The position numbers and the translations under genes were made by a program. The notes beneath the pieces were generated by a model. The model had not been told where the DNA came from, ran no database searches, and was given only the letters and a program-made list of their open reading frames with translations. From a virus, in the IMG/VR virus record IMGVR_UViG_3300033571_008236, positions 1-21,727 of that record: 21,727 nucleotides of DNA, one strand, 5' to 3'. Below are positions 9,098 to 21,475 of this stretch, one piece after another. How positions within the stretch are numbered: position 1 is the first letter of the stretch; every line of letters begins with the position of its first letter.

Positions 9098-12000
9098 ATG
9101 GCTGATTGGGGTTTATCCGATCCGGATTTTGATGCAACGAAATCAAAAGCCGTAGACACCTCGTGGGGCGAATCTGATCCTGATTATCAAGGTAGCGTCC
9201 CGACGCCAATATCGAGGCGAGAGGCGTTTCCGGAAGAACCTCGTTCTTTTACCGAAGCGCTTATTGGTCGTGGTGAACCGTCTAGAACGTCCATTGGTCT
9301 TGGCGGCGCACCTCTTGCTGAAAGCCAGCAAGGTCTTGATGAGACAGGTCTTGAACGCGCAACCACAGCGATTGGTGACATTCCAGAAGCCGCTATGCGC
9401 GGTTATTACGGCGCGAAGACTGGCGCAAACATCCTTGGTGTCGAGACTGGTGTCTTGTCACCTCAAGAGGCTGCTGCCAACATCGCAGCAAGCAACAAGG
9501 CTGCCGCTGCCGTTCCTATGCCTGAAAGCGTCCGAAAGGGAATGGAAGAGCTTCAAAAGGCAAAGGGATGGGCCGAGAGCTTTGAAGTCTTAAAGAAGTA
9601 TCCCGATATTTTGCCTTCCGTTGTTGGCGAAAGCGTATCGTCATCTCTCCTTTCTGGCGCAACAGGTCTTATTGGTGGTTTGACTGGTGCTGTTATTGGA
9701 TCTGCCGCTCCTGTTGTGGGGACCGCCGCAGGTGGAACGGCCGGTCTTTCGGTTGGTGTTGGCCTTGGTTCTGCAGCAACAGAATATGCAAGCACGTTGA
9801 ACAATTTCCTTTTGGAACGTGGATACGACACATCAAATCCAGACCAGTTGAAGGCTGCCTTCTCCGATCCTGATTTGATGGCAGAGGCTCGTAAGGATGC
9901 TGCGTTGCGCGGTGTCGCCGTTGGTGCATTTGATGCCCTGTCTGCTGGTGTTGCTGGCAAGCTGTTTGGTCCGGTCAGCAGATTGGCTGGCAAGAGGGTT
10001 GGGCCTATTGCCGGATCGACGGCAGAGCTTGGCGCACAAGCCGGTGCTGGCGCTGCTGGTGCGGCCACAGGTCAGGTTCTCACAGAAGGTAAAATTACAG
10101 AGCCGTCTGAGATTCTTCTTGAAGCCGCTGGTGAAATTGTCCCCGGCCTTGGCGAAATTGCAATCAGCAAGATGCTCCCATCCGGACAGGCTCCGGCTGC
10201 GGCCCCTGCCGCTCCCGCTGCCGCACCGACGGAACCACTTCAGGTCAACGTCACCGTTCCGATGCTTCGGCCGGGCGAGAGACCAGAAGGTGCTGCCGCC
10301 GAGCCAGAGCCAAGTGAGAAAGATCTGGAAACGCTCAGTGACGTTGCTGCTCTCAGAGGGGCAGGCTTCGATGTTGATGACATCTCCTCGATGTCCACTC
10401 GTCAGCGCCGTGCAGTAGCAGACAAGATCAGGAAAGATGGCATAGTAGAACCTGCTGAACTGACGCCGGACGAGATCCAGCTTTTTGCGCCAAATGTATT
10501 GGCTCCGGCCGTTCCGTCCTCCCCGGAACCGGCTGTTGAGGCGCGGGGGCCAGAGGGTTTGCTTCCTTCCCCTTCTGCGCCCCCGGTCGCCCCAGTTGCA
10601 GATGCTCCATCTGAACGCGCTGCCGCGCTTGTTCAGCAAGGCGTTGAACCGCTTGAGGCTATGCAGCAAGCAGCACAGGCTCCAGTTGAAGCTCCAGCCC
10701 CTATTGAAGCGCCACAGGCGACGCAGCCTCTTCTTAATATTCCCTACGATACGCTGACGTTCGACAACGCGGCGAATAGGACAGTCGCGTCGTCTGGCAA
10801 TAGTCAGATTATCAATTTCAGCGGCCGAATGATCGTTGTGCGGGATGTTGATGGCGTCCGTGTGCCGTTTTATCTCAGCACAGGAGATGGCGGCAAAAAA
10901 GATGTTCAGTCCGGCAAATGGTATCCATTTTTTGGCATCGGACCTGACGGCTGGATCAATAAGACTGGCGGCGCTGAGATGTCTGGGTATTATGGCAGTG
11001 AAGCGTTACGAAACGCTGCCCAGCAGCTCGACAGCGAGATTGGCGATATTCGCAATGACAAATCGGTTCCAAAAGTAAAAGCAACCGGATCTCATATTGA
11101 CTTTATCAACGAAGGTCTCTCGCCCGTTGAGAACCAAACTCCAGATACTCTTGCCCGCGTTCGAGACAATATCGACGGGCTGCTTGCTCGCCTCGGTGGG
11201 TCTCAAGTTAAACCGGCTCCAGATCGCACGGAGGCGGGTTCCGCTGCCGTTCCTAAATTTTCTCGGGAGTCTGCAAAGAAACAATTCGACAATGCCTTTA
11301 CCGGAAAACCGTTCAAGGCCACGCTAATCCGTGGTCAGGGCGCAACCGAAAGCCCATACAACGATTTCGGTGCGCAAGAACCAATTCTCGGCCAAGGTCG
11401 ATACACGACATATGACGAAGAATATGCTTCTATCTTTGGTCCGAACATCACGGAACATGAAGTTTCTCTTAAAAATCCTCTTGTCATCGACAATGATTTG
11501 CGATGGAAAAACCTGACCAAGAAAGCTGGATGGAAATTCCCAAATCCATCCATGGCTGAACCGGGCCGGGCAAAACAAGAGATCGCAAACCTTCGCAAGA
11601 TGCTTGTCGATGAGGGTTATGATGGTGTTGTTATCCTTGTCCCAGAAAGCGAGATCGACGGTAAAACGCTTCAAAACGTCTTTGGCGCAGATCAGGCCAT
11701 TGAATTTAATGTTGCAAAACCCGCTGTAGAAAAGAAGGCCGAGCCAAAAGCAAAGGCAGAACCGGTTGCTGCTGCACCAAAGGCAAAGAAGGGTCCGTCT
11801 CCTCGTCCGTTCTGGCGGGCAGGAAACATGGACACCGCCATCCGCAATATGGGCGGCATCAAGGATGTTGGTGGGGAATTTAAGGCCCGTGATGTTCCTC
11901 GTCAGTTGATTAACAATAAGCGCGGCCGCCCGTTCGAGCAGGTCGCTCTCGATCTTATCGAGCGTGGATACTATCCGGAATTTAAAGCCGATCTTGAGGC

Positions 12001-15000
12001 TTCAGCAGACAGCGCGACCGGCAATTACCAGCCGACGCCGGAAATGCTTGAGCAAATCAAGAACGATGTTGGCAAAAAGAAAATGCACCCGTCCTATCAA
12101 GAGGACGTGGAAGAAGCTCGTCGTCTTGACCAAGAAAAGAATATCTTTGGTCCATACATTGAGGAAGCAGAGAAAGCGGCAGCGGCTCTTGGCATCAGCA
12201 AAGATGATCCGATGGTCCGTCAGGCTGCGCAGATGGTCTACAACGGCGACGTTGAGACGGCAGAAGATGCGTTCCGCGCCTTGCTGTTCACTGAGATTGA
12301 AGATGCCCTTCCCGCTGAAGCCCTTCCCGAATTGCGTGAAGCGTTCGGTGAAGAAAACCTGAGAGACATTGAGGAGTTTCTTGCCATTGAAGGCATGGCT
12401 CCATTGGAGGCTGATTATGTTCCCGAACCATCACCAGTGCAGGAAGGTCGCCCAGTTAGCGGAGAGATCCGCGAACAAGGAAAGCAACCCGAAGGCGAAG
12501 GCGCACCTGAAGTCTCTCGCGGCAAAGTGGCGGAACCTGTCGGCGAAAAGGCTGAAAGGAAAAGCGGCCCAATCCTGAAAGAAGTTGCAGCCTATTATCG
12601 CAACGAAGGCTCATTGAGGGCGGTCCCGCGTCCTGATGGATCGCAAGAAATTGTGTCTCGTGACGGATCTGTCAAAATTGCCGTTGTGCCGAAAGGCAAA
12701 GACATCGAACGTGCGATGCTTGAAGCCGTGCGCGATGAAGCAAATCGGTCCTTTGGCGATGATCCGACCAAGATGACGCTTGATGAGTTTAGCATTGCAT
12801 ATCGCATGAAACTCATTCCTGAATTTGAGATCACGCCGGACGAGATGAGCAAGCTGCTTGTCACCGCGCCAGATGGAACATTCACGGTCAACATCCGTGG
12901 TCTGTATGACAAGATCATGCAGTCTGTCGAACCGGACATTTCAAGGCAGGCAAAAGAAGATATTGGTGCTGAAGGCAAGCCGCAGCTTGTTATCCCGGGT
13001 GCGGAAAAGGTTGACCAGAAGAAGATGCTTGAGAAAAAGGCTCAAGCACCTCTGAAGGCCAAAGTGAAACAGAAAGAGCCGGGCGGATTGTTCAGCGATG
13101 AACGTCTCCAGCAAGATCTGTTTTCTTCCGTTGCATCTAAGCCTGAACCGAAGCCTGTTGTTGAGCAGCAGCCAAAGCGCCAGATCGCTGATTGGATGAA
13201 AGAGTATGCTGCAAGCAACGGCCACAAGGCCGTGTTTGCGAACGAAAAGATTGGTATCGCTTATCGCTCAACCCAAAACGGGATCCTTGAGTATATTGCC
13301 TATCACCGTCCATCCAATTCCAAAACAATGGTGGATGTTGATGCCTACACTGGAACGATGTTCACGCCGGACGAGCTTCAGCTTTTGCGCGATGAAAAGG
13401 CAAAAGAGGAAAAGTGGTCGGCAAACGAACTAAGCAAAAACCCTGCTGGTCCGTTTAAAAATGCAAACATTGTTGTTTCACCAAACTTCCCAGAAAAGTT
13501 TGCAAAGATTGGCATTGAATGGCTGAAAATTGCAAAAATTCCGCCAAACACAAAAGTCATGTTCTCGACGGTTGAGGATGCTGAGAATATGGATCTTGCT
13601 GGTGACTATCGCATCATCAGTTCTCCAAAGACATTCTTTAACGCTGGAACAAACGGGCTTCATGTTTCTCCAAAGGAAAATCCAAAAAATACACGCACAG
13701 ATCAGGACTGGCATGTAATTTACATTAAGAAGGGTATGAAGACAGCAAAGACGCTGGAAACATTGTCACATGAAATTGGACACCTTCTTGATATTGTAAT
13801 TTGGAGAAACGCAAGCGGCCCAGAAAAAGACGCCGTTATTCAAGCGCACGAAACGTGGGCCAAGAAGTCAGGTGCGGGTTTTGCGCCAGATTTGTTTTCT
13901 GGTCGCGCCTATCGGACGCAAAGAGAGCTTTTGAAGAAGTATCCGCATATGGCGCAAACGCCAGCATCCAACATTGGGCAAAAAGAATATTTCTTGAGCT
14001 TTCCTGAATGGTATGCCGACAACATGGCTCGCTGGTTCACATCTCAGAACAAGCCACTTACCGTCGTTGATCGTTATTTCAAGAGATTGGCTGATGCTTT
14101 GCGTCGTTTCTATGCCGCCATCACAAATCAGCAATACGCACCAAACCCTGAATTTAAGAAATGGTTTGAGGGATACCTCGATTCTCAGCCGCAGTTTGCT
14201 GCGCCAAACATGGTTGAGATCAAAACACCTGAGACAATAGCCAGAGAGCAGCGCGATACATTGGATCGCAGCCCTGATCCCGTTTACACCGTGCCGCAAG
14301 ACGGTCTTGGTGCGCAGTTCATGTATAGCATTGTTGATCGTTATTACGATGCAACTGCAATTCAACGCGCGATTGAAGCGGCCCGTGGCTCAAAGATGCC
14401 TGACAATCTGGACGTTGAAATGGCGATCCAGCTTATGCAGGACAAGGCTATTGCCAAGCAGAACAAGTTCTTTGACGACAAGGTTCGCCCCATGGTCGCG
14501 TTTATGCAGACGCATAAAATAACCGGGGATGAGGCTGGCATGTTCCTTTATGCGCAACATGCACCGGAGCGTAACCTCCGCATGGCGCAGCGTGATCCTA
14601 CACGTTTTGACGGGACAAACGGTTCCGGCATGACGACGCAGGAAGCCATCGACTATATGGAGAGCATCCCGGAAGAGCGACGTGCTTTGCTGAAGCAGCT
14701 TTACAACGATCACGTCAAACCGATCCTCCGCTCGGATCTTGATTATCGTGTCGAGAATGGCCTTCTCACTGATGAAGCATATGAGTCTTATACGCTCCCA
14801 TTCGATCAGGGCGGCTATGACTATTACATGCCGCTTCAGGGCTTTGCAGAAGAAGATGCTGATGCAAGCAATTCGATCCCGAATGTCGGCCGTGGCTTTG
14901 CTGTCTGGGGCAAGGAATATAAGGTTGCGGCAGGTCGTGTCAGCAAGGCAATGAACCCGCTGTTCTCCGCCATTCAAAAGAGAATGGATGGCATTGTCCG

Positions 15001-17038
15001 TGTTGAGAAGAACAACACCGATAAGGTCATTTACGACCTGTTCAAGAAGAACCCGAACCCTGAAGTTGCCGAGATCTACAGCGAAAAGAATTTGCCGACG
15101 CGGCCCGTTCTTCGCATGGATGGGACAATCCAGCAGGTTCCGGACTTTGCCGAGGCCCGCGCTGATTATACATTACCGCTCAAGATTGGCGGAAAGCAGC
15201 ATTACATTGTCTTTAATCGAGACAATCCTGTTTCCTCCCGACTTGTCCGTGTTTTGAAGAACTTGGATAAAGATTCGACGGACATCATTAGCCGGACAAT
15301 CTTCTCTCTTGGTCAGTTTATGTCGAAGATCAACACCCAATGGGTTCCTGACTTCTTCATCACCAACATGCCGCGCGACGTTCAGGACGCTCTTGTTTCG
15401 CTTTACTCGACAAAAGAGGGTCTGGCGACGAACTTCATGGCTGAATTTACGCGGGCCGGAAACATCGTCAGGAAGGTTGCCTCTGGCAAAACGCTCAGTG
15501 TCGATGAGCAGGCGTCCTATGATGAATGGACCGGCAGCGGTGGACGTTTGGACTTTGGTGGCTTTGCAACGGTCGCAAAGTCGGCAGACAAACTGGAAGA
15601 AGAATTTGGCGACGTTTTCAATCGGGAACGGACAACGCCAGAGCAGCTTCAACGCTATTTCAAAAAGAGCGGTCAAGTCACTCTCGGCGCTATCGAAGCC
15701 TTCAACCAATTCTTCGACGATATGGTTCGCTTCTCTGTCTATCGGGCAGCAAGAAAAGGCGGGATGTCGCGTGATCGTGCGGCCCAGTTGGCTCGTCGTG
15801 CGACGGTTGACTTCCGGCAGCGCGGCCAGATCATGCCATATGTCAATGCGTTCTATCCTTATCTCAGCGCCGGTATCAACGGTGTGCGGAACTTGTTGCG
15901 CGTCTTGAGGACCAAGAAGGGCAAGAAGATCATTGGTTCGCTGATGCTTCTTGGTGTCGCCAATTCCTTGCTGGGTCTTGCATTGTCTGAGGACGATGAG
16001 ACTGATCCCACAAAGAAAAAGTATTACACTGAAATAAATTCATGGGAACGGGCCAAGTCGATCATCATCCCGATCCCGATCAACGGCAAGTATCGCAAAG
16101 TCAGCCTTGGTTTCATGGGCCTCTTTGCCTTTGGCCTTGGGGATCAAATTGTCGGTTATCTCAGTGGCAATGTGAAGGCTGATGAGGCAGCAACGAATGT
16201 CGGCACATCTCTTGTTTCGTCATTCGTTCCTTTCTGGTCTGGTGGCGCTGTCGATTCAATAACGCCATGGGTCTTGCAGCCTGTCATCGAGCTTTGGACA
16301 AACAGCAATTGGTTAGGCAACCCGATCTATCCGGAAAAAGATACTCGTATGCCGCAGTCGTCTCAGGCTTTTGAGAAGACACCGGAGTGGGCAAAGTCGG
16401 CAGCGGAGTTTGCAAACTATTGGTCAGGCGGTTCTCATACAGAACCCGGCTGGGTCGATGTATATCCGGCAACGCTGGAATATTTTTCGAACTTTGCCCT
16501 GCAAGGTCTCAAGTCCTTTGGCTCTTCGTCCTATGAGACTTTCAGGAGCTTCATGGATGGTGAGGCTCCGGAAGGTGACAAGATGCCGTTCGTGCGCCGC
16601 GTCACCACGCGCGATACAGCGCAGCGGTCTGACTATTATGAATTGCGCAATTCGATTAAGGCCGGTGTTGCCCAAGCGCGAGATCTGCGCAAAATCATTA
16701 TGGACAGAAAGTCCACACCTGAAGAGAAGGCAGATGCTCGCACCACCATGCGCAAGCTGTCTCGTGAGCTTGGCATAAGCCTGACGACGGATGGTGTTAC
16801 AATCAAGAACAGCATCGCGGATCAGTTTGATAAGACCGATGAGAAAATTAAAAGGTTCAACGAAGAAATCAAAGCTATCCAAGACAATGAAAACCTGACA
16901 ACGGCTGAAAAGGCCGAGCGTGTCAGGCAGAAAGAAGCCGCAAAAGAAGCGGCCATGAATCTTGCCCGCAGGCGATACTTGAGCCGGAACCGGCCGGAAG
17001 AATCGCCCGCAGAGCAGATCATGGATGTCTTACAGTGA
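9098..17038 (+). CDS. Giant polyvalent protein: metallopeptidase + ART-like + LPD38-like regions, probably virion-borne
   Basis: A 2646-residue multi-domain protein. In order: two WG-x-SDPD repeats at the N-terminus; a Gly/Ala hydrophobic stretch (183-227); Pro/Ala linkers (about 360-540); a compact domain (about 552-652) with GKWYPFFGIGPDGWINK at 606-622. Next is an ADP-ribosyltransferase-like region (739-872) with LIRGQG, GQGRYTT at 765-771 and GYDGV at 840-844, then a conserved GGIKD segment from 911. A zincin follows, with HEIGH at 1558-1562 and EWYAD at 1637-1641. Last is an LPD38-like half (1736 to about 2330) including NMPRDVQD, a hydrophobic segment (2278-2296) and a C-terminal coiled coil. 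Such domain mixtures are known as polyvalent proteins, thought to enter the host with the DNA and counter defences. AAGGA at 9087-9091 supports the start. Ejection is inferred from position after internal-virion-type genes. Confidence 0.85.
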   Translation: MADWGLSDPDFDATKSKAVDTSWGESDPDYQGSVPTPISRREAFPEEPRSFTEALIGRGEPSRTSIGLGGAPLAESQQGLDETGLERATTAIGDIPEAAMRGYYGAKTGANILGVETGVLSPQEAAANIAASNKAAAAVPMPESVRKGMEELQKAKGWAESFEVLKKYPDILPSVVGESVSSSLLSGATGLIGGLTGAVIGSAAPVVGTAAGGTAGLSVGVGLGSAATEYASTLNNFLLERGYDTSNPDQLKAAFSDPDLMAEARKDAALRGVAVGAFDALSAGVAGKLFGPVSRLAGKRVGPIAGSTAELGAQAGAGAAGAATGQVLTEGKITEPSEILLEAAGEIVPGLGEIAISKMLPSGQAPAAAPAAPAAAPTEPLQVNVTVPMLRPGERPEGAAAEPEPSEKDLETLSDVAALRGAGFDVDDISSMSTRQRRAVADKIRKDGIVEPAELTPDEIQLFAPNVLAPAVPSSPEPAVEARGPEGLLPSPSAPPVAPVADAPSERAAALVQQGVEPLEAMQQAAQAPVEAPAPIEAPQATQPLLNIPYDTLTFDNAANRTVASSGNSQIINFSGRMIVVRDVDGVRVPFYLSTGDGGKKDVQSGKWYPFFGIGPDGWINKTGGAEMSGYYGSEALRNAAQQLDSEIGDIRNDKSVPKVKATGSHIDFINEGLSPVENQTPDTLARVRDNIDGLLARLGGSQVKPAPDRTEAGSAAVPKFSRESAKKQFDNAFTGKPFKATLIRGQGATESPYNDFGAQEPILGQGRYTTYDEEYASIFGPNITEHEVSLKNPLVIDNDLRWKNLTKKAGWKFPNPSMAEPGRAKQEIANLRKMLVDEGYDGVVILVPESEIDGKTLQNVFGADQAIEFNVAKPAVEKKAEPKAKAEPVAAAPKAKKGPSPRPFWRAGNMDTAIRNMGGIKDVGGEFKARDVPRQLINNKRGRPFEQVALDLIERGYYPEFKADLEASADSATGNYQPTPEMLEQIKNDVGKKKMHPSYQEDVEEARRLDQEKNIFGPYIEEAEKAAAALGISKDDPMVRQAAQMVYNGDVETAEDAFRALLFTEIEDALPAEALPELREAFGEENLRDIEEFLAIEGMAPLEADYVPEPSPVQEGRPVSGEIREQGKQPEGEGAPEVSRGKVAEPVGEKAERKSGPILKEVAAYYRNEGSLRAVPRPDGSQEIVSRDGSVKIAVVPKGKDIERAMLEAVRDEANRSFGDDPTKMTLDEFSIAYRMKLIPEFEITPDEMSKLLVTAPDGTFTVNIRGLYDKIMQSVEPDISRQAKEDIGAEGKPQLVIPGAEKVDQKKMLEKKAQAPLKAKVKQKEPGGLFSDERLQQDLFSSVASKPEPKPVVEQQPKRQIADWMKEYAASNGHKAVFANEKIGIAYRSTQNGILEYIAYHRPSNSKTMVDVDAYTGTMFTPDELQLLRDEKAKEEKWSANELSKNPAGPFKNANIVVSPNFPEKFAKIGIEWLKIAKIPPNTKVMFSTVEDAENMDLAGDYRIISSPKTFFNAGTNGLHVSPKENPKNTRTDQDWHVIYIKKGMKTAKTLETLSHEIGHLLDIVIWRNASGPEKDAVIQAHETWAKKSGAGFAPDLFSGRAYRTQRELLKKYPHMAQTPASNIGQKEYFLSFPEWYADNMARWFTSQNKPLTVVDRYFKRLADALRRFYAAITNQQYAPNPEFKKWFEGYLDSQPQFAAPNMVEIKTPETIAREQRDTLDRSPDPVYTVPQDGLGAQFMYSIVDRYYDATAIQRAIEAARGSKMPDNLDVEMAIQLMQDKAIAKQNKFFDDKVRPMVAFMQTHKITGDEAGMFLYAQHAPERNLRMAQRDPTRFDGTNGSGMTTQEAIDYMESIPEERRALLKQLYNDHVKPILRSDLDYRVENGLLTDEAYESYTLPFDQGGYDYYMPLQGFAEEDADASNSIPNVGRGFAVWGKEYKVAAGRVSKAMNPLFSAIQKRMDGIVRVEKNNTDKVIYDLFKKNPNPEVAEIYSEKNLPTRPVLRMDGTIQQVPDFAEARADYTLPLKIGGKQHYIVFNRDNPVSSRLVRVLKNLDKDSTDIISRTIFSLGQFMSKINTQWVPDFFITNMPRDVQDALVSLYSTKEGLATNFMAEFTRAGNIVRKVASGKTLSVDEQASYDEWTGSGGRLDFGGFATVAKSADKLEEEFGDVFNRERTTPEQLQRYFKKSGQVTLGAIEAFNQFFDDMVRFSVYRAARKGGMSRDRAAQLARRATVDFRQRGQIMPYVNAFYPYLSAGINGVRNLLRVLRTKKGKKIIGSLMLLGVANSLLGLALSEDDETDPTKKKYYTEINSWERAKSIIIPIPINGKYRKVSLGFMGLFAFGLGDQIVGYLSGNVKADEAATNVGTSLVSSFVPFWSGGAVDSITPWVLQPVIELWTNSNWLGNPIYPEKDTRMPQSSQAFEKTPEWAKSAAEFANYWSGGSHTEPGWVDVYPATLEYFSNFALQGLKSFGSSSYETFRSFMDGEAPEGDKMPFVRRVTTRDTAQRSDYYELRNSIKAGVAQARDLRKIIMDRKSTPEEKADARTTMRKLSRELGISLTTDGVTIKNSIADQFDKTDEKIKRFNEEIKAIQDNENLTTAEKAERVRQKEAAKEAAMNLARRRYLSRNRPEESPAEQIMDVLQ

Positions 17039-17679: not shown

Positions 17680-18136
17680 TGTCTTTCCATTGTTGTAGAC
17701 GATTTTGTTCAACGACATAGCTGAAATTAAATTCCGCGCTTTTATTCTCATCCTTATACAACTCTGCTGCCGTTATATATCCGGGGAATAGAACATATGT
17801 GTCGTGCAGAATTGCAAGCGCGAACACATCAATGTCATCGTTGTGTTTGGCGATAAGTTTTCCGCTTTTGACGCGGGTCGTTTTCACATCGAACCGTTTC
17901 TCCTTGAGTAGACAGTCGGCAGATCCCGTCCTTGGTTTTGCTGTGATGTCAAAGAATATGTTCCAGTGCTTGCAGAAAGCATATTCACCAATGAACCCAT
18001 CCTCATCAATCTCGTAGGTATCGCGGTTGAACGGCGTGTTTTTACTGGAGACGGTTCGAGCCGAGAACGACCGAAGGTTTCCCATCATCTTGCAAACGGC
18101 AATTTCAGCCGGTTCAAGGTCAACCCTGATTATCAT
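17672..18136 (-). CDS. PD-(D/E)XK-like nuclease, phage type
   Basis: A 154-residue protein with the residue order of the PD-(D/E)XK nuclease fold: E51 in DGFIGEYAF, D74 in RTGSADCLL, then D83 and K85 in FDVKTT, followed by a DIDVFALAIL strand and VLFPGYITAAEL. The series GEYAFCK, PRTGSADC, DVKTT is one I recognise in short phage proteins usually annotated as hypothetical. Members of this fold cut DNA as exonucleases, junction resolvases or restriction-like enzymes, and the substrate here is unknown. The start at 18136 overlaps the preceding gene by 17 bases. Its place between an unknown gene and the HNH gene suggests work on early phage or host DNA. The fold assignment is from residue pattern only. 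Confidence 0.65.
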   Translation of the reverse strand: MIIRVDLEPAEIAVCKMMGNLRSFSARTVSSKNTPFNRDTYEIDEDGFIGEYAFCKHWNIFFDITAKPRTGSADCLLKEKRFDVKTTRVKSGKLIAKHNDDIDVFALAILHDTYVLFPGYITAAELYKDENKSAEFNFSYVVEQNRLQQWKDNG

Positions 18137-18455
18137 CTTTCATCCACTTCAAAGCATCTTCGGAACAGGCATCGAGCAGCTTGTCCGAATGGGTTTCAGC
18201 CAATGCGTCAGCAAACGCATCGAGCATGTCTTCAGAAACAATGTCCGGCATATTGCCGTGAGAGTCTTCGACATAAATATCCACGAAGCCCATGACTTCG
18301 CAGCCAAGCGTTCCCATAAAATTGCGGGACACAAGCTGCGTTGCCTCTCCTTCGTAGGATAATTCTGCGACACCGCTGATAAAATACTCTCTGTCATTAA
18401 ACATGGCAGCGAGGTTCTCGAATTGGTAAAGTGCAGATCCTTCAAACTTAATCAT
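18120..18455 (-). CDS. Unknown phage protein, 111 residues, acidic
   Basis: Read from ATG 18455, whose first bases overlap the previous gene's TGA (ATGA at 18452-18455); an upstream start at 18470 would add five residues but is less well placed. The product starts MIKFEGSALYQFENLAAMF and contains a β-rich middle (YFISGVAELSYEGEATQLVS) and an acidic helical end (SEDMLDAFADALAETHSDK). I do not recognise a family. No catalytic motif, membrane segment or metal site is evident. Its position in a tightly overlapping operon is the main support for it being real, and codon phase is continuous with its neighbours' pattern of short overlaps. Confidence 0.65.
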   Translation of the reverse strand: MIKFEGSALYQFENLAAMFNDREYFISGVAELSYEGEATQLVSRNFMGTLGCEVMGFVDIYVEDSHGNMPDIVSEDMLDAFADALAETHSDKLLDACSEDALKWMKDDNQG

Positions 18456-18583
18456 CGTTTTTTCAACCAAGCCTGTTCGCGTTCTTTTCTGAGCCGATCC
18501 AATTCGATGCGCATCTCTGCAAATTCATCGTGCATAAACCGGTATCGTTTTGCCAATCGGGCAAATTCATCCTGAAGGTCCAT
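18452..18583 (-). CDS. Coiled-coil small protein, 43 residues
   Basis: A short gene read from ATG 18583, overlapping the end of gcrA by 17 bases and ending with an ATGA overlap onto the next gene. The product, MDLQDEFARLAKRYRFMHDE followed by FAEMRIELDRLRKEREQAWLKKR, is almost wholly a charged amphipathic helix with heptad-like Leu/Ile/Met spacing, so a coiled coil is likely. The frame is open upstream as far as an ATG at 18814, but that would overlap gcrA by nearly 250 bases and its extra N-terminus is low-complexity, so the short form is preferred. Function unknown; an adaptor or inhibitor that binds a partner protein would suit its size. Confidence 0.6.
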   Translation of the reverse strand: MDLQDEFARLAKRYRFMHDEFAEMRIELDRLRKEREQAWLKKR

Positions 18584-19079
18584 GTATCTTTTTATGCTTA
18601 CTACCCCCTCCGTCTCTGTATTTTGGCTGCTCGTCGAAGGGCCGATAGACAATGGCAGCGTGATAGTCGCACCATCCGTTTCTTGTTGCTGGTGTTCCGC
18701 AGCAAATGTATTGCTCTCCTCGTTTTTCAACGATGAATTTGCATTGGTGATTTTGTCTTCTGAGGAACGGGACATAATGCTCCTTACTAGGCGGGGGAGG
18801 CGGTGATATTTCATGCTTTACCCTTTCCTGTTTCGGGCCTGTCAGAAATACTCTCCTGAGATGTTCTCCTCTGCGCGGTCTTGGTGACTTTGGTGCATTT
18901 TCTTTCGTGGCTTTTGCCCCAGACTTCGCCAATGATTTTACTTTATTGCGGTGCATTACGCCAATCACGGAGTTGCGTGTCCGGCCGACTTGCCGCCCGA
19001 TCTCTGATGCACTTTTGCCTTCAGCAGCCAGCTTCCTGACGATTTCTAATTCATCTGGTGTCCAATGCTTTAATGTCAT
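18567..19079 (-). CDS. gcrA: GcrA-like cell-cycle transcription regulator
   Basis: A 170-residue protein of the GcrA family (Pfam GcrA). The N-terminal helix-turn-helix domain is clear: HWTPDELEIVRKLAAEGKSA (5-24) then SEIGRQVGRTRNSVIGVMHR (25-44). A Pro/Lys-rich linker follows (60-105), and a Cys-rich C-terminal segment contains C113, C126, C127, C137 and H140 (CKFIVEKRG, CCGTPATRNGWCDYH). In alphaproteobacteria GcrA binds sigma-70 holoenzyme and activates promoters carrying CcrM-methylated GANTC. A phage copy may redirect host transcription to phage or S-phase genes; this is inference. The ATG at 19079 overlaps the upstream TGA (ATGA); a start at 19091 is possible. No CcrM methylase is in the window. 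Confidence 0.9.
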   Translation of the reverse strand: MTLKHWTPDELEIVRKLAAEGKSASEIGRQVGRTRNSVIGVMHRNKVKSLAKSGAKATKENAPKSPRPRRGEHLRRVFLTGPKQERVKHEISPPPPPSKEHYVPFLRRQNHQCKFIVEKRGEQYICCGTPATRNGWCDYHAAIVYRPFDEQPKYRDGGGSKHKKIHGPSG

Positions 19080-19531
19080 GAGCGTGTCCATTCTTCCGGC
19101 TCCATACCCAACATGGCAAACACTTCGTCGAGCAGGGCTTGCCTATCAGTTTCAGGGATAACTTCTTCGACGATCACATCCAGACATTGATTGAAGAACT
19201 TCCTAAATTCATCCTGCCCCATCGAATGAAACGATATGGATTTGGTCTGCGTCCATATCTTTCCATCGTGCATCATAACGCTATCAACCCAGCCGAGACG
19301 GACCTTCAGCCATGTGAGAAGCTGTTCCGGATTGGTGTAATAGGGATGGTTTTCCACAACCTTCGCCAGAAGAGACCAAAACAGGCGATGCTGCTTTGGG
19401 CTTCTGGTCCGGGTTATCTTGACTGTCAGATCACGGCCTTCAGGGATCTCAAGCAAATGCTCCCGATCCCATTCGGTAACGGGGAGAAGCCTCTCCCCGC
19501 TCCGGCGCATGATGAGGAAGTCGTTGCTCAT
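19076..19531 (-). CDS. DUF1367 family phage protein
   Basis: A 151-residue protein matching the general pattern of DUF1367: a DLTVKITRTRSPKQHRLFWS segment (34-53), LLAKVVENHPYYTNPEQLLTWL, a HDGKIWTQTKSISFHSM stretch, and DEFRKFFNQCLDVIVEEVIP near the end. DUF1367 proteins are found in phages and prophages next to recombination genes, often in the place of NinB-like factors, but no biochemical role is established that I know of. The ATG at 19531 overlaps the erf stop by four bases, and its own stop overlaps gcrA. The coupling to erf suggests a role in recombination or replication. Confidence 0.75.
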   Translation of the reverse strand: MSNDFLIMRRSGERLLPVTEWDREHLLEIPEGRDLTVKITRTRSPKQHRLFWSLLAKVVENHPYYTNPEQLLTWLKVRLGWVDSVMMHDGKIWTQTKSISFHSMGQDEFRKFFNQCLDVIVEEVIPETDRQALLDEVFAMLGMEPEEWTRS

Positions 19532-20172
19532 GCCGCTGCTGCTGCCTCATTGAGACGCTTCTGGGCTTCGACAAATGCTGCACGAACTGCCGCCTGATCC
19601 GGTGGTGTCAGCTTCTTTGTCTCGCTGGCAACATCAGTTCCCCATTTCTGAAGAGCAACCTTGTCGGTGATGTTATTCAAGCCAATCATCATTTCTTCTG
19701 CGCGAAGTTTGCTTTTTTCATCGTCATAGCCATCGACGACGGGCTTCGGCGCTTGCTTGGCAGGACGCGCAGCATTTACCGGAACATCGTTTGCTGCATT
19801 GCCATCGTCATCCTCTTCACCGGCAACACCAGCAATAGCAGACAAAGATAGGCGCTTTGCATAAGTGAGGGCAGCCGCAATTTCCTGATGTTTGCCGCTG
19901 TTCGTAACCGGATAAACCGACTCAATCCACTGACCTGATGTATGCGTCAGACGGGAATAGAGGACCATCCCTGTATCCTCTATCCCCGTCATCTGCATGA
20001 GGGCGATCCCATTCTTTGCAAGAGCGGGACGCACCGCATTGAGAACCGATGACAGATCCGCATACTTCGATTTGAAGTGCGGGTTAACCTTGTTGAAAAC
20101 AGGGTTTGTCATTTCGGCCTGTGCCTTGGCAAGTGCCGCAGCAATTTCATTAATCTGTTCTGACGTTTTCAT
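19528..20172 (-). CDS. erf: Erf-family single-strand DNA annealing protein
   Basis: A 214-residue protein of the ERF superfamily. The signature region NPVFNKVNPHFKSKYADLSS (23-42), followed by VLNAVRPALAKNGIALMQ and later SGKHQEIAAALTYAKRLSLS, is characteristic. ERF proteins form rings on single-stranded DNA and anneal complementary strands, for example to circularise or recombine phage genomes. The C-terminal third (120-214) is less conserved, with a Pro/Lys linker and a helical end finishing in AAAAA. It is encoded two genes after a YqaJ-type exonuclease, the usual partner that makes single strands. Four-base ATGA overlaps on both sides point to translational coupling. No sign of truncation. 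Confidence 0.92.
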   Translation of the reverse strand: MKTSEQINEIAAALAKAQAEMTNPVFNKVNPHFKSKYADLSSVLNAVRPALAKNGIALMQMTGIEDTGMVLYSRLTHTSGQWIESVYPVTNSGKHQEIAAALTYAKRLSLSAIAGVAGEEDDDGNAANDVPVNAARPAKQAPKPVVDGYDDEKSKLRAEEMMIGLNNITDKVALQKWGTDVASETKKLTPPDQAAVRAAFVEAQKRLNEAAAAA

Positions 20173-20399
20173 TGTTTTGCTTCCTTATATGTGTTCGCCC
20201 AAGGCCCACCGTTAACTTTGTTAGCCATTCCCATTAACGCATCAAGATATTGAAACGAGTTTTCGACCGCTTCACCATATCCCTTAACCCAATCAGTAGG
20301 TTCACGATCATCATTTGTTGCTTTGCTGATCAATGCACGTTGCCCTGCAAGAAATGACTTCATCTGAATGATGATAAGCGTATCGGTTATATCGCCCAT
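20169..20399 (-). CDS. Unknown small phage protein between exonuclease and erf
   Basis: A 76-residue protein (MGDITDTLIIIQMKSFLAGQ, then EPTDWVKGYGEAVENSFQYL) of mixed helical character. The ATG at 20399 shares one base with the exonuclease's TGA (TGATG); a GTG three bases upstream is also possible, and AAGGAG lies at a usable distance from both. Its stop overlaps the erf ATG (ATGA). I do not recognise a family. The conserved-looking VKGYGEAVENSF stretch resembles short phage proteins of the type that read GYxxAxxDA near Asp/Trp pairs, but I cannot name one. Position inside the recombination pair suggests an accessory role. Confidence 0.65.
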   Translation of the reverse strand: MGDITDTLIIIQMKSFLAGQRALISKATNDDREPTDWVKGYGEAVENSFQYLDALMGMANKVNGGPWANTYKEAKQ

Positions 20400-21184
20400 C
20401 ACTTCATCTCCTTAATCGTAATGGAGCCAGTCTTGCTCCGTTTTGCCACAAGACCATGACCATATGCCTCGGCCGCATCAGCCGGTGTCATCGCCTTCAA
20501 TCCTTCTTTAGCTTTATCAAACTTTCCCGCTGCATCTTTATTGGAAATGAATGTAGCAGCAAGATCAGCCCACTCATTGTTGCCAGTCATATCGACCTTC
20601 TTATCAACAGGACCATCATATTTGACGGCGCGGATCACTGGTTCGATGCCTTCGAGGACACAATCCCAGAACTGCTCTTCGACAGCGATCAACTCTTCCG
20701 CGTATCCATAGTCCAATTCAAACTCAAACACCGAGTGTTTATGGTTGCCGAAAAACACTGATAAAACAGCCCTTTTCAGATCACACACAATCATGTTGTG
20801 CGTAAGCTGCGGGATGTATTTCTGGATCACTTCCTCATCTTTCCAGAAAGCAGAAACATGCTTTGCTTCCCAGATGGCCTTGTTGTCATCCGTCAAACCA
20901 TCGAGGGTGCAACCCATGAATGGATGATCTAGGCAGATGCGCTGATCCCCTGCCGCAAGAACATTGCGACCGGTTGTCTTGGTAAACCAAGTCCGATTGA
21001 AGGCTTCAGTCCATATGCCCATCTGAACAGGGAGAACGTCGGAAAGATCTTCATGCTCTTTCTCGCCGCGCTTTTCCTGCCACAGCCGGAATATCTTTTC
21101 ATTGTCCCCAGACATGAGGATGTTCGCATCCGAGCCGCCAAGAACGGTTTTACGAAATGCGATCTGTTCTGCTGTAAGGCTCAT
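20399..21184 (-). CDS. YqaJ-type viral recombinase / lambda-exonuclease-fold nuclease
   Basis: A 261-residue nuclease. The sequence shows GGSDA (16-20), the acidic E60 in MGIWTEAF, D95 in CTLDGL, and E106-A107-K108 in AIWEAKH, followed by YIPQLTHNM with Q126. This is the order of catalytic and structural residues of the YqaJ/λ-exonuclease group (PD-(D/E)XK fold), which degrades one strand of double-stranded DNA from ends to make 3' tails for an annealing protein. The Erf gene two positions downstream is the expected partner. ATGA overlap at 21181-21184 with the preceding gene supports the start. The C-terminal 60 residues (DNA-distal) are Lys/Ala-rich and do not match a motif I can name. Confidence 0.88.
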   Translation of the reverse strand: MSLTAEQIAFRKTVLGGSDANILMSGDNEKIFRLWQEKRGEKEHEDLSDVLPVQMGIWTEAFNRTWFTKTTGRNVLAAGDQRICLDHPFMGCTLDGLTDDNKAIWEAKHVSAFWKDEEVIQKYIPQLTHNMIVCDLKRAVLSVFFGNHKHSVFEFELDYGYAEELIAVEEQFWDCVLEGIEPVIRAVKYDGPVDKKVDMTGNNEWADLAATFISNKDAAGKFDKAKEGLKAMTPADAAEAYGHGLVAKRSKTGSITIKEMK

Positions 21185-21408
21185 ACCTTGCTCCCATCGA
21201 ATGATTTGTTAAGTGCCTTGGTCAGAGCCAAGCGCAATTCATCTGGCGATCCATTGAACTGCAATACACATTCTTCAAACGTGATCTTCTGCGGTTCATG
21301 ATAGTCTGCCGTATCAAGCAGCAAGTGAAGCATTGTCTGATTCGTTTGCGGAAGATGATGAACCATCGCGTCGATGTGAACGACGCGCTGAAAATAAACT
21401 GTTGCCAC
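21181..21408 (-). CDS. Unknown small protein, first gene of leftward operon
   Basis: A 75-residue protein beginning with GTG at 21408 (MATVYFQRVVHIDAMVHHLP), chosen because GAGGAGG lies at 21416-21422, seven bases upstream, a near-ideal ribosome site. The middle contains LLLDTADYHEPQKITFEECV and the end LRLALTKALNKSFDGSKV. I do not recognise a family. It stands first after the candidate leftward promoter, so it would be among the earliest proteins made from this operon, a position often held by host-takeover or regulatory proteins in phages. That role is only inference from position. Confidence 0.65.
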   Translation of the reverse strand: MATVYFQRVVHIDAMVHHLPQTNQTMLHLLLDTADYHEPQKITFEECVLQFNGSPDELRLALTKALNKSFDGSKV

Positions 21409-21439: not shown

Positions 21440-21461
21440 ATTTTTATTTTGATGCTAGAAA
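21433..21461 (+). promoter_or_regulatory. Candidate rightward promoter, overlapping the leftward one
   Basis: TTGCGA at 21433-21438 and TAGAAA at 21456-21461 are separated by 17 bases; each matches four of six consensus positions. It would drive the rightward gene at 21492. Its elements overlap those of the leftward promoter, so the two could compete. Weaker than the leftward candidate. Confidence 0.35.
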
Positions 21462-21475
21462 TTAAAAAATGTCAA
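21446..21475 (-). promoter_or_regulatory. Candidate leftward sigma-70 promoter for the early operon
   Basis: On the minus strand a perfect TTGACA (21470-21475) is followed after 18 bases by CAAAAT (21446-21451), which matches the TATAAT consensus at four of six positions. It lies 37 bases before the GTG of the first leftward gene, within the only real intergenic gap of the window. The whole spacer is A/T-rich. Confidence 0.55.

Follow-up and report, generated by a model that had tools for sequence, protein, structure and literature searches.

A phage-lineage GcrA encoded among recombination genes and overlapped by a candidate overprinted gene

GcrA connects DNA methylation with the cell cycle in alphaproteobacteria, where the host chromosome carries CcrM-methylated GANTC sites. 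In the accessible part of a review, its domain borders are given as residues 1-45 and 108-173, with the C-terminal, sigma-interacting half (SID) binding sigma region 2 (PMC7403470). Phage-borne GcrA as such is not new. As described in the accessible portions of the respective reports, gp222 of phiCbK is a phage GcrA proposed to shift the host to replication (Gill 2012, PMC3556154), gp5 of Atu_ph08 (2019, PMC6630229) and both ORF4 and ORF5 of Brucella phage Y17 (2025, PMC11836647) are GcrA proteins, a coral-associated phage linked to Rhizobiales carries GcrA (PMC11309003), and a table entry lists the gene for phiLM21-like prophages (PMC12429752). The word GcrA is absent from the accessible text of a 2024 paper on Riverwalkvirus phages (PMC11053796), and no title or abstract was found that reports a split phage GcrA, one reduced to the DNA-binding domain (DBD), or an ORF overlapping gcrA, in a search that left most subscription papers outside its reach.

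The locus analyzed here lies on a virus record of 21,727 nucleotides, probably a fragment, to which we refer as the window (IMG/VR IMGVR_UViG_3300033571_008236). From position 21408 downward on the minus strand, the window carries a tight operon of genes with overlaps of a few bases, which encode, in this order, a 75-aa ORF, YqaJ, a 77-aa ORF, Erf, NinB, GcrA, ORFs of 120, 116, and 154 aa, and an HNH protein (Table 1). The same operon recurs on L002 and L093, two short viral contigs of 7.8 and 5.0 kb, and the GcrA lineage of the window is known from these three contigs. A preliminary description of the window, made from its letters alone, had placed a GcrA regulator in a phage recombination operon next to Erf and DUF1367 genes, and family searches agree with it on all of these genes. 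The same description had suggested early production, and gcrA is probably made together with the recombination genes, because the genes overlap and a sigma-70-like promoter stands before the first of them in all three contigs. The case for this promoter lies in its conservation, since a promoter scan of the window, with 5 promoter-like sites versus 5.7 in shuffled sequences, is by itself no better than chance. Elsewhere in the window, positions 9098-17038 encode a 2646-aa protein with an LPD38 domain (113 bits), a large polyvalent protein that is perhaps injected with the DNA.

Table 1. Coordinates of the operon features on the window
Feature	Position	Strand	Details
Sigma-70-like promoter	21446..21475	-	TTGACA-18-CAAAAT; alike in three contigs; without GANTC
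First operon ORF	21181..21408	-	75 aa; conserved in L002 and L093
YqaJ/RecE-like exonuclease	20399..21184	-	Family match
Operon ORF without family match	20169..20402	-	77 aa
Erf single-strand annealing protein	19528..20172	-	PF04404, 67.8 bits
NinB/Orf-like recombination mediator (DUF1367)	19076..19531	-	PF07105, 50.8 bits; phrog_319 (NinB/Orf), 1.3e-24
Phage gcrA	18567..19091	-	174 aa from ATG 19091 (170 aa from ATG 19079); PF07750, 7ye1_G, SD
DNA-binding half (HTH)	18945..19079	-	Residues 1-45 from ATG 19079; helices 8-19, 24-31, 35-44; AlphaFold, structure matches
Sigma-interacting-like C-terminal half (SID)	18633..18758	-	About residues 108-149; C113, C127, C137, H140; AlphaFold block
Candidate overprinted gene	18452..18814	-	120 aa; covers last 82 gcrA codons in another frame; long C-terminal helix
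Next operon ORF	18120..18470	-	116 aa, TTG start; conserved in L002 and L093

The family membership of the regulator is clear, with the ORF at 18567-19079 (-) matching the Pfam GcrA profile PF07750 over most of the model (positions 2-151 of 155) at 62.5 bits, above the curated cut-off of 26.9 (E 7.8e-17). The counterparts in L002 and L093 match the same profile at 62.7 and 57.3 bits, and the Caulobacter GcrA chain 7ye1_G matches the window protein over residues 5-160 with an E-value of 1.5e-12 (phmmer). Translation probably starts at ATG 19091 instead of 19079, because the Shine-Dalgarno (SD) sequence GGAG is located 8 nt before the former, no such SD precedes the latter, and the sequence upstream of 19091 is nearly identical in L002 and L093. 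The window protein is 70% identical to the L002 protein and 61% identical to the L093 protein, and the gene is intact in each. In a tree, the three form a clade (support 100/97), whose attachment to other phage GcrAs is weakly supported and involves long branches; the use of this tree for dating the acquisition of gcrA was dropped, as the deeper position of the trio depends on the meeting of long branches. Besides these three, the viral contig L142 carries a GcrA with 34% identity in a region with a primase/helicase-like ORF. An alignment of five GcrA proteins, made for a distant pattern search, was too little conserved to provide patterns, and a pattern scan of genome contigs gave matches in 74 stretches, none of which codes for a relative.

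The DNA-binding half of the window protein keeps 18 of the 33 columns shared by at least 90% of 34 host GcrAs, including W6, G21, A24, S25, G32, R35, N36, V38, I39, G40, H43, and R44. Its N-terminal helix-turn-helix (HTH) contains the R-N-x-V-I-G of the Caulobacter DBD, reading R-N-S-V-I-G, with S in place of A as in 6 of 90 viral loci. The helix columns R, N, A, V, I, and G are present in 109-110 of 110 host loci and 83-89 of 90 viral loci, values that are inflated on both sides as these sets were mostly gathered with Caulobacter GcrA patterns including the recognition helix and C-K-W-P-I. In an AlphaFold model of the window protein (mean pLDDT 76.7), residues 1-40 fall in blocks at 84-95, and the best matches to the modelled DBD among 1000 chains are those of the Caulobacter GcrA DBD (5yiu, Z 8.8, rmsd 1.2; 5yiv_A, Z 8.1, rmsd 1.0), although the input alignment included host GcrAs, so that the fold is partly inherited and not independent of family membership. 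The sequence nevertheless shows that this protein retains the recognition helix and the fold of a GANTC reader. Its DNA preference may still differ from that of the host protein, because the residues K, L, and G that follow the recognition helix in hosts are replaced by V, N, and K.

The C-terminal half is more divergent, with 6 of 18 host-conserved columns kept (C113, C127, G128, C137, H140, and P147) and 12 changed. The Cys/His frame of C113, C127, C137, and H140 is invariant in 37 of 37 aligned rows, and AlphaFold places residues 101-150 in a block at pLDDT 82-94; the structure comparison for this half consists of the 7ye1_G alignment alone, which covers 96 residues at rmsd 14.7 and spans both domains. 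The host signature C-x-W-P-x-G-D-P reads C-K-F-I-V-E-K in the window, and because this signature is absent, we classify the protein, from its sequence, as a phage variant of GcrA and not as a host-type alphaproteobacterial GcrA. With 12 of the 18 columns changed, sigma binding may be lost. The preliminary description had concluded from the presence of both domains that the copy looks functional. Both are indeed recognizable, as the HTH and as C...C...C..H, but the conclusion is weakened by the missing host signature, and “functional” suits the DNA-binding half better than the sigma-binding half.

This divergence is not confined to the window lineage. Across 110 host loci (the 80 best of 549, plus 30 picked by likeness to the window protein, with at least one duplicate, L013 = L124), the signature residues are found in 106 (W), 109 (first P), 109 (G), 99 (D), and 109 (last P) loci. 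The corresponding counts are 52, 61, 52, 38, and 36 for the 83 viral loci with an aligned SID, out of 90 (80 of 83 found plus 10 hand-picked, the window trio being among the latter). The GcrA match is limited to the DBD in 7 of 80 viral loci (L205, L209-L212, L217, and L222), and no SID was found in an open frame near these seven ORFs. Caulobacter phage KcrB encodes the DBD in gp061 (L139:29329-29646, Pfam 33.7 bits) and the SID in gp049 (L139:18375-18938), both annotated as hypothetical and about 10 kb apart, the latter detected at E 2.2e-10 with an HMM including the window lineage and at 14.6 bits, below the cut-off, with Pfam. The sigma-binding half is generally relaxed in viral GcrAs and missing from some of them, and this, like the combination of a well-kept DNA-binding half with an SID reduced to its Cys/His frame in the window protein, is apparently a new observation. 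In Phaeobacter phage MD18 (L011:2001-2375), a GcrA DBD 71% identical to that of Caulobacter is fused to an unrelated C-terminus, and the gene adjoins one annotated as DNA polymerase III epsilon subunit.

The explanation that we favor is that a host sigma-70 promoter would drive early production of this intact phage-lineage GcrA along with the recombination proteins. The regulator would then bind methylated GANTC on the host chromosome and, via an altered contact with sigma-70 region 2, change the transcription of host S-phase and division genes to the advantage of phage replication. As the preliminary description had suggested, it may hold the host in a replication-friendly state. The overlapping ORF would encode a small protein that is disordered over most of its length, has a long helix at its C-terminus, and is probably made at a constant ratio to GcrA. 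Taken as a whole, including selection on the second frame, we consider the chances of this explanation to be about even. Activation at host promoters is our first choice over competition with host GcrA, and this choice hinges on the SID, which retains its frame but no longer has the host signature. As a competitor, the phage protein would occupy methylated GANTC without productive sigma-70 contact, shut down the genes driven by host GcrA, and stall division in a dominant-negative manner. We regard this alternative as doubtful, albeit the best of those considered: a pure competitor would need neither the Cys/His frame nor the fold of the SID, both of which are kept and, in the model, confidently predicted, and the C-terminal half is still conserved across the three contigs. 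Nevertheless, the loss of the host signature in the window lineage speaks for competition, and the DBD-only viral ORFs, the MD18 protein with its unrelated C-terminus, and the DBD-only gp061 kept by KcrB all point in the same direction.

The 3′ half of gcrA is overlapped by an ORF with the same start, stop, and length in the window, L002, and L093, without indels, whereas the 5′ part of gcrA does contain indels. An SD lies 7 nt before its start in each contig (AAGG in the window, AAGGAG in L002, AAGGA in L093). Among gcrA codons that specify the same amino acid in two contigs, those that differ are much rarer in the overlap than in the 5′ part: 4/52 vs 26/49 between the window and L093 (Fisher p 6e-7), 14/64 vs 29/52 between the window and L002 (p 2e-4), 15/59 vs 34/63 between L002 and L093 (2e-3), and 14/50 vs 33/45 over all three contigs (p 1.3e-5). 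When equal-size windows were taken from YqaJ, Erf, NinB, the gcrA 5′ part, and the next ORF, none was as low as the overlap for the window and L093 (0/554) or for the window and L002 (0/520). Between L002 and L093, 346/609 were as low, so that the overlap is not under the background for this pair, in which the neighboring genes are nearly identical. The alternative-frame products share 52, 53, and 49 of 81 residues, compared to means of 27.0, 29.5, and 28.8 when the GcrA sequences were fixed and synonymous codons redrawn, each value being above the maximum of 5000 draws (sd 3.7 and maximum 40 for the first comparison). In a model based on three sequences (mean pLDDT 63.5), the product has no regular structure up to residue 73, followed by one helix at 74-119. 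No relative was found in 50,697 phage records at E-values up to 1, and L002 and L093 were the only viral contigs in which the search for this ORF succeeded. An antisense ORF over gcrA (18582-18806, +) was considered as a cause of the codon constraint and rejected, being open in L002 and not listed in L093.

Hence, in these three contigs, a conserved start, stop, and SD are combined with constraint on the second frame, and the ORF is apparently a gene born by overprinting, and apparently a new one, as judged by these comparisons of codons and frames. It is unlikely that the ORF is not a gene, with the constraint arising from RNA structure or recombination and the real downstream gene starting at 18583 (43 aa). 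This possibility gains from the probability of the alternative frame being open by chance (0.57, 0.59, and 0.40 per contig), which makes openness alone weak evidence, from the part past the gcrA stop being the best conserved (28-33 of 38 residues), and from the near-identity of NinB in L002 and L093, which indicates that recombination occurs. However, the inner start at 18583 lacks an SD, and the differences between the window and L093 are equally frequent in the overlap and the 5′ part at first and second codon positions (22+20 vs 23+19) and halved in the overlap at third positions (21 vs 45), a pattern that recombination would not give. An overlapping frame under selection within the gene of a regulator would illustrate cleanly how overprinting gives rise to a gene in a tailed phage.

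For the target of the regulator, the preliminary description had proposed that GcrA may direct host polymerase to phage genes, to be checked by the GANTC frequency upstream of these genes. The window contains 22 GANTC sites, compared to 77.3 expected from a second-order model, making this the most depleted of 255 gapped motifs, and to 56.7 (sd 5.7) after shuffling of synonymous codons within genes. All 22 are in coding sequence, with none in 629 non-coding bases and none within the operon promoter of the window, L002, or L093; the proposal finds no support in the part of the genome, and in the promoters, that this fragment covers. Because the phage GANTC sites are few and absent from promoters, the phage’s own promoters are unlikely GcrA targets here, and the host chromosome is the likely one. 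Recruitment of polymerase to phage promoters, via GANTC or another site, is accordingly quite unlikely. The GANTC sites at 21339 and 21536 do flank the operon promoter of the window, in which the -10 hexamer CAAAAT is weak, yet both sites are missing from L002 and L093, and the accessible part of a study of alphaproteobacteria phages reports no positional asymmetry of GcrA sites (PMC9437464).

Part of the GANTC depletion may reflect escape from restriction, because other motifs are also avoided, namely GTAC (0 seen vs 25.0 expected, and likewise 0 in L002 and L093) and CCNGG (34 vs 85.6, a ratio of 0.40). The observed/expected ratio of GANTC is 0.43 in 352 kb of alphaproteobacterial DNA and 0.02-0.56 in other phages, mostly of alphaproteobacteria. 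Depletion was rejected as a sign of GcrA, given the 0.43 of host DNA and the 0.35 and 0.39 of two phages in which no GcrA was found. The strongest depletion among the phages compared is that of the GcrA-carrying RHph_X2_24 (L105), with 3 sites in 50 kb vs 168.9 expected. The host of the window virus is very probably an alphaproteobacterium, as the preliminary description had read from GcrA itself, because the virus encodes a 600-aa virion protein with 52% identity to those of Caulobacter phages RW, RLK, KcrB, and GB2A, in two segments that together span 84% of the protein, and shares its GANTC depletion with alphaproteobacterial DNA. GcrA is also present in PP438432 (L006) and OM868079, both named after Synechococcus, and their stated host may be wrong; GANTC depletion in PP438432 is 0.33, and GcrA and depletion are together traits of alphaproteobacterial phages.

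That gcrA is a recently acquired host gene without function in the phage is very improbable and was already disfavored: GcrA is admittedly widespread, with 68 of 385 alphaproteobacterial genomes matching the window protein at 1e-6 or better, but the best match (E 2.9e-16) is 31% identical, identity does not exceed 39% for matches that span most of the protein or 45% for a local match of 60 residues, and the intact gene holds the same operon place in all three contigs.

Beyond this locus, the main role of GcrA in alphaproteobacterial phages might be to read methylated GANTC rather than to act as a sigma-70 cofactor, a generalization that we consider rather doubtful at present. The reading half would be kept nearly unchanged while the sigma half is relaxed, dropped as in the DBD-only proteins, moved to another gene as in Riverwalkvirus, or overprinted as here, such that the phage would block or rewire the methylation-gated cell cycle of its host. 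A series of phages that keep the methyl-reader and alter or remove the polymerase contact would amount to separation-of-function variants provided by nature, through which phage exploitation of the alphaproteobacterial cell cycle would become directly testable.

Compared to Caulobacter crescentus GcrA (PF07750; 7ye1, 5yiu, 5yiv, 5yix), the window protein has the same two halves joined by a linker, the same DBD fold and recognition helix, and the same Cys/His frame in the SID, but it is 28-30% identical, lacks W-P-x-G-D-P, and is encoded in a phage recombination operon where an ORF overlaps its gene. It shares with phiCbK gp222 and its relatives the property of being a phage-encoded GcrA; however, the proteins of phiCbK and BL57 keep C-R-W-P-Y-G-D-P, belong to jumbo phages, are not located beside erf/ninB, and show 20-22% aligned identity. 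Podoviridae sp. ct2G2228 (MW202785) also combines Erf and NinB with a phage GcrA, which the tree groups with the window lineage on weak support, although this GcrA keeps C-R-W-P-I and is encoded apart from erf/ninB, on the other strand, where its gene overlaps the beginning of a replisome organizer ORF. GenBank does not annotate this intact gcrA (L003:7559-8092, Pfam 84.2 bits), listing instead a short antisense ORF and the overlapping replisome-organizer ORF. Finally, the Riverwalkvirus phages RW, RLK, KcrB, and GB2A are the closest isolated relatives by virion protein, and KcrB has GcrA-like sequence as well, yet divided between separate genes for the two halves that are joined in the window protein.
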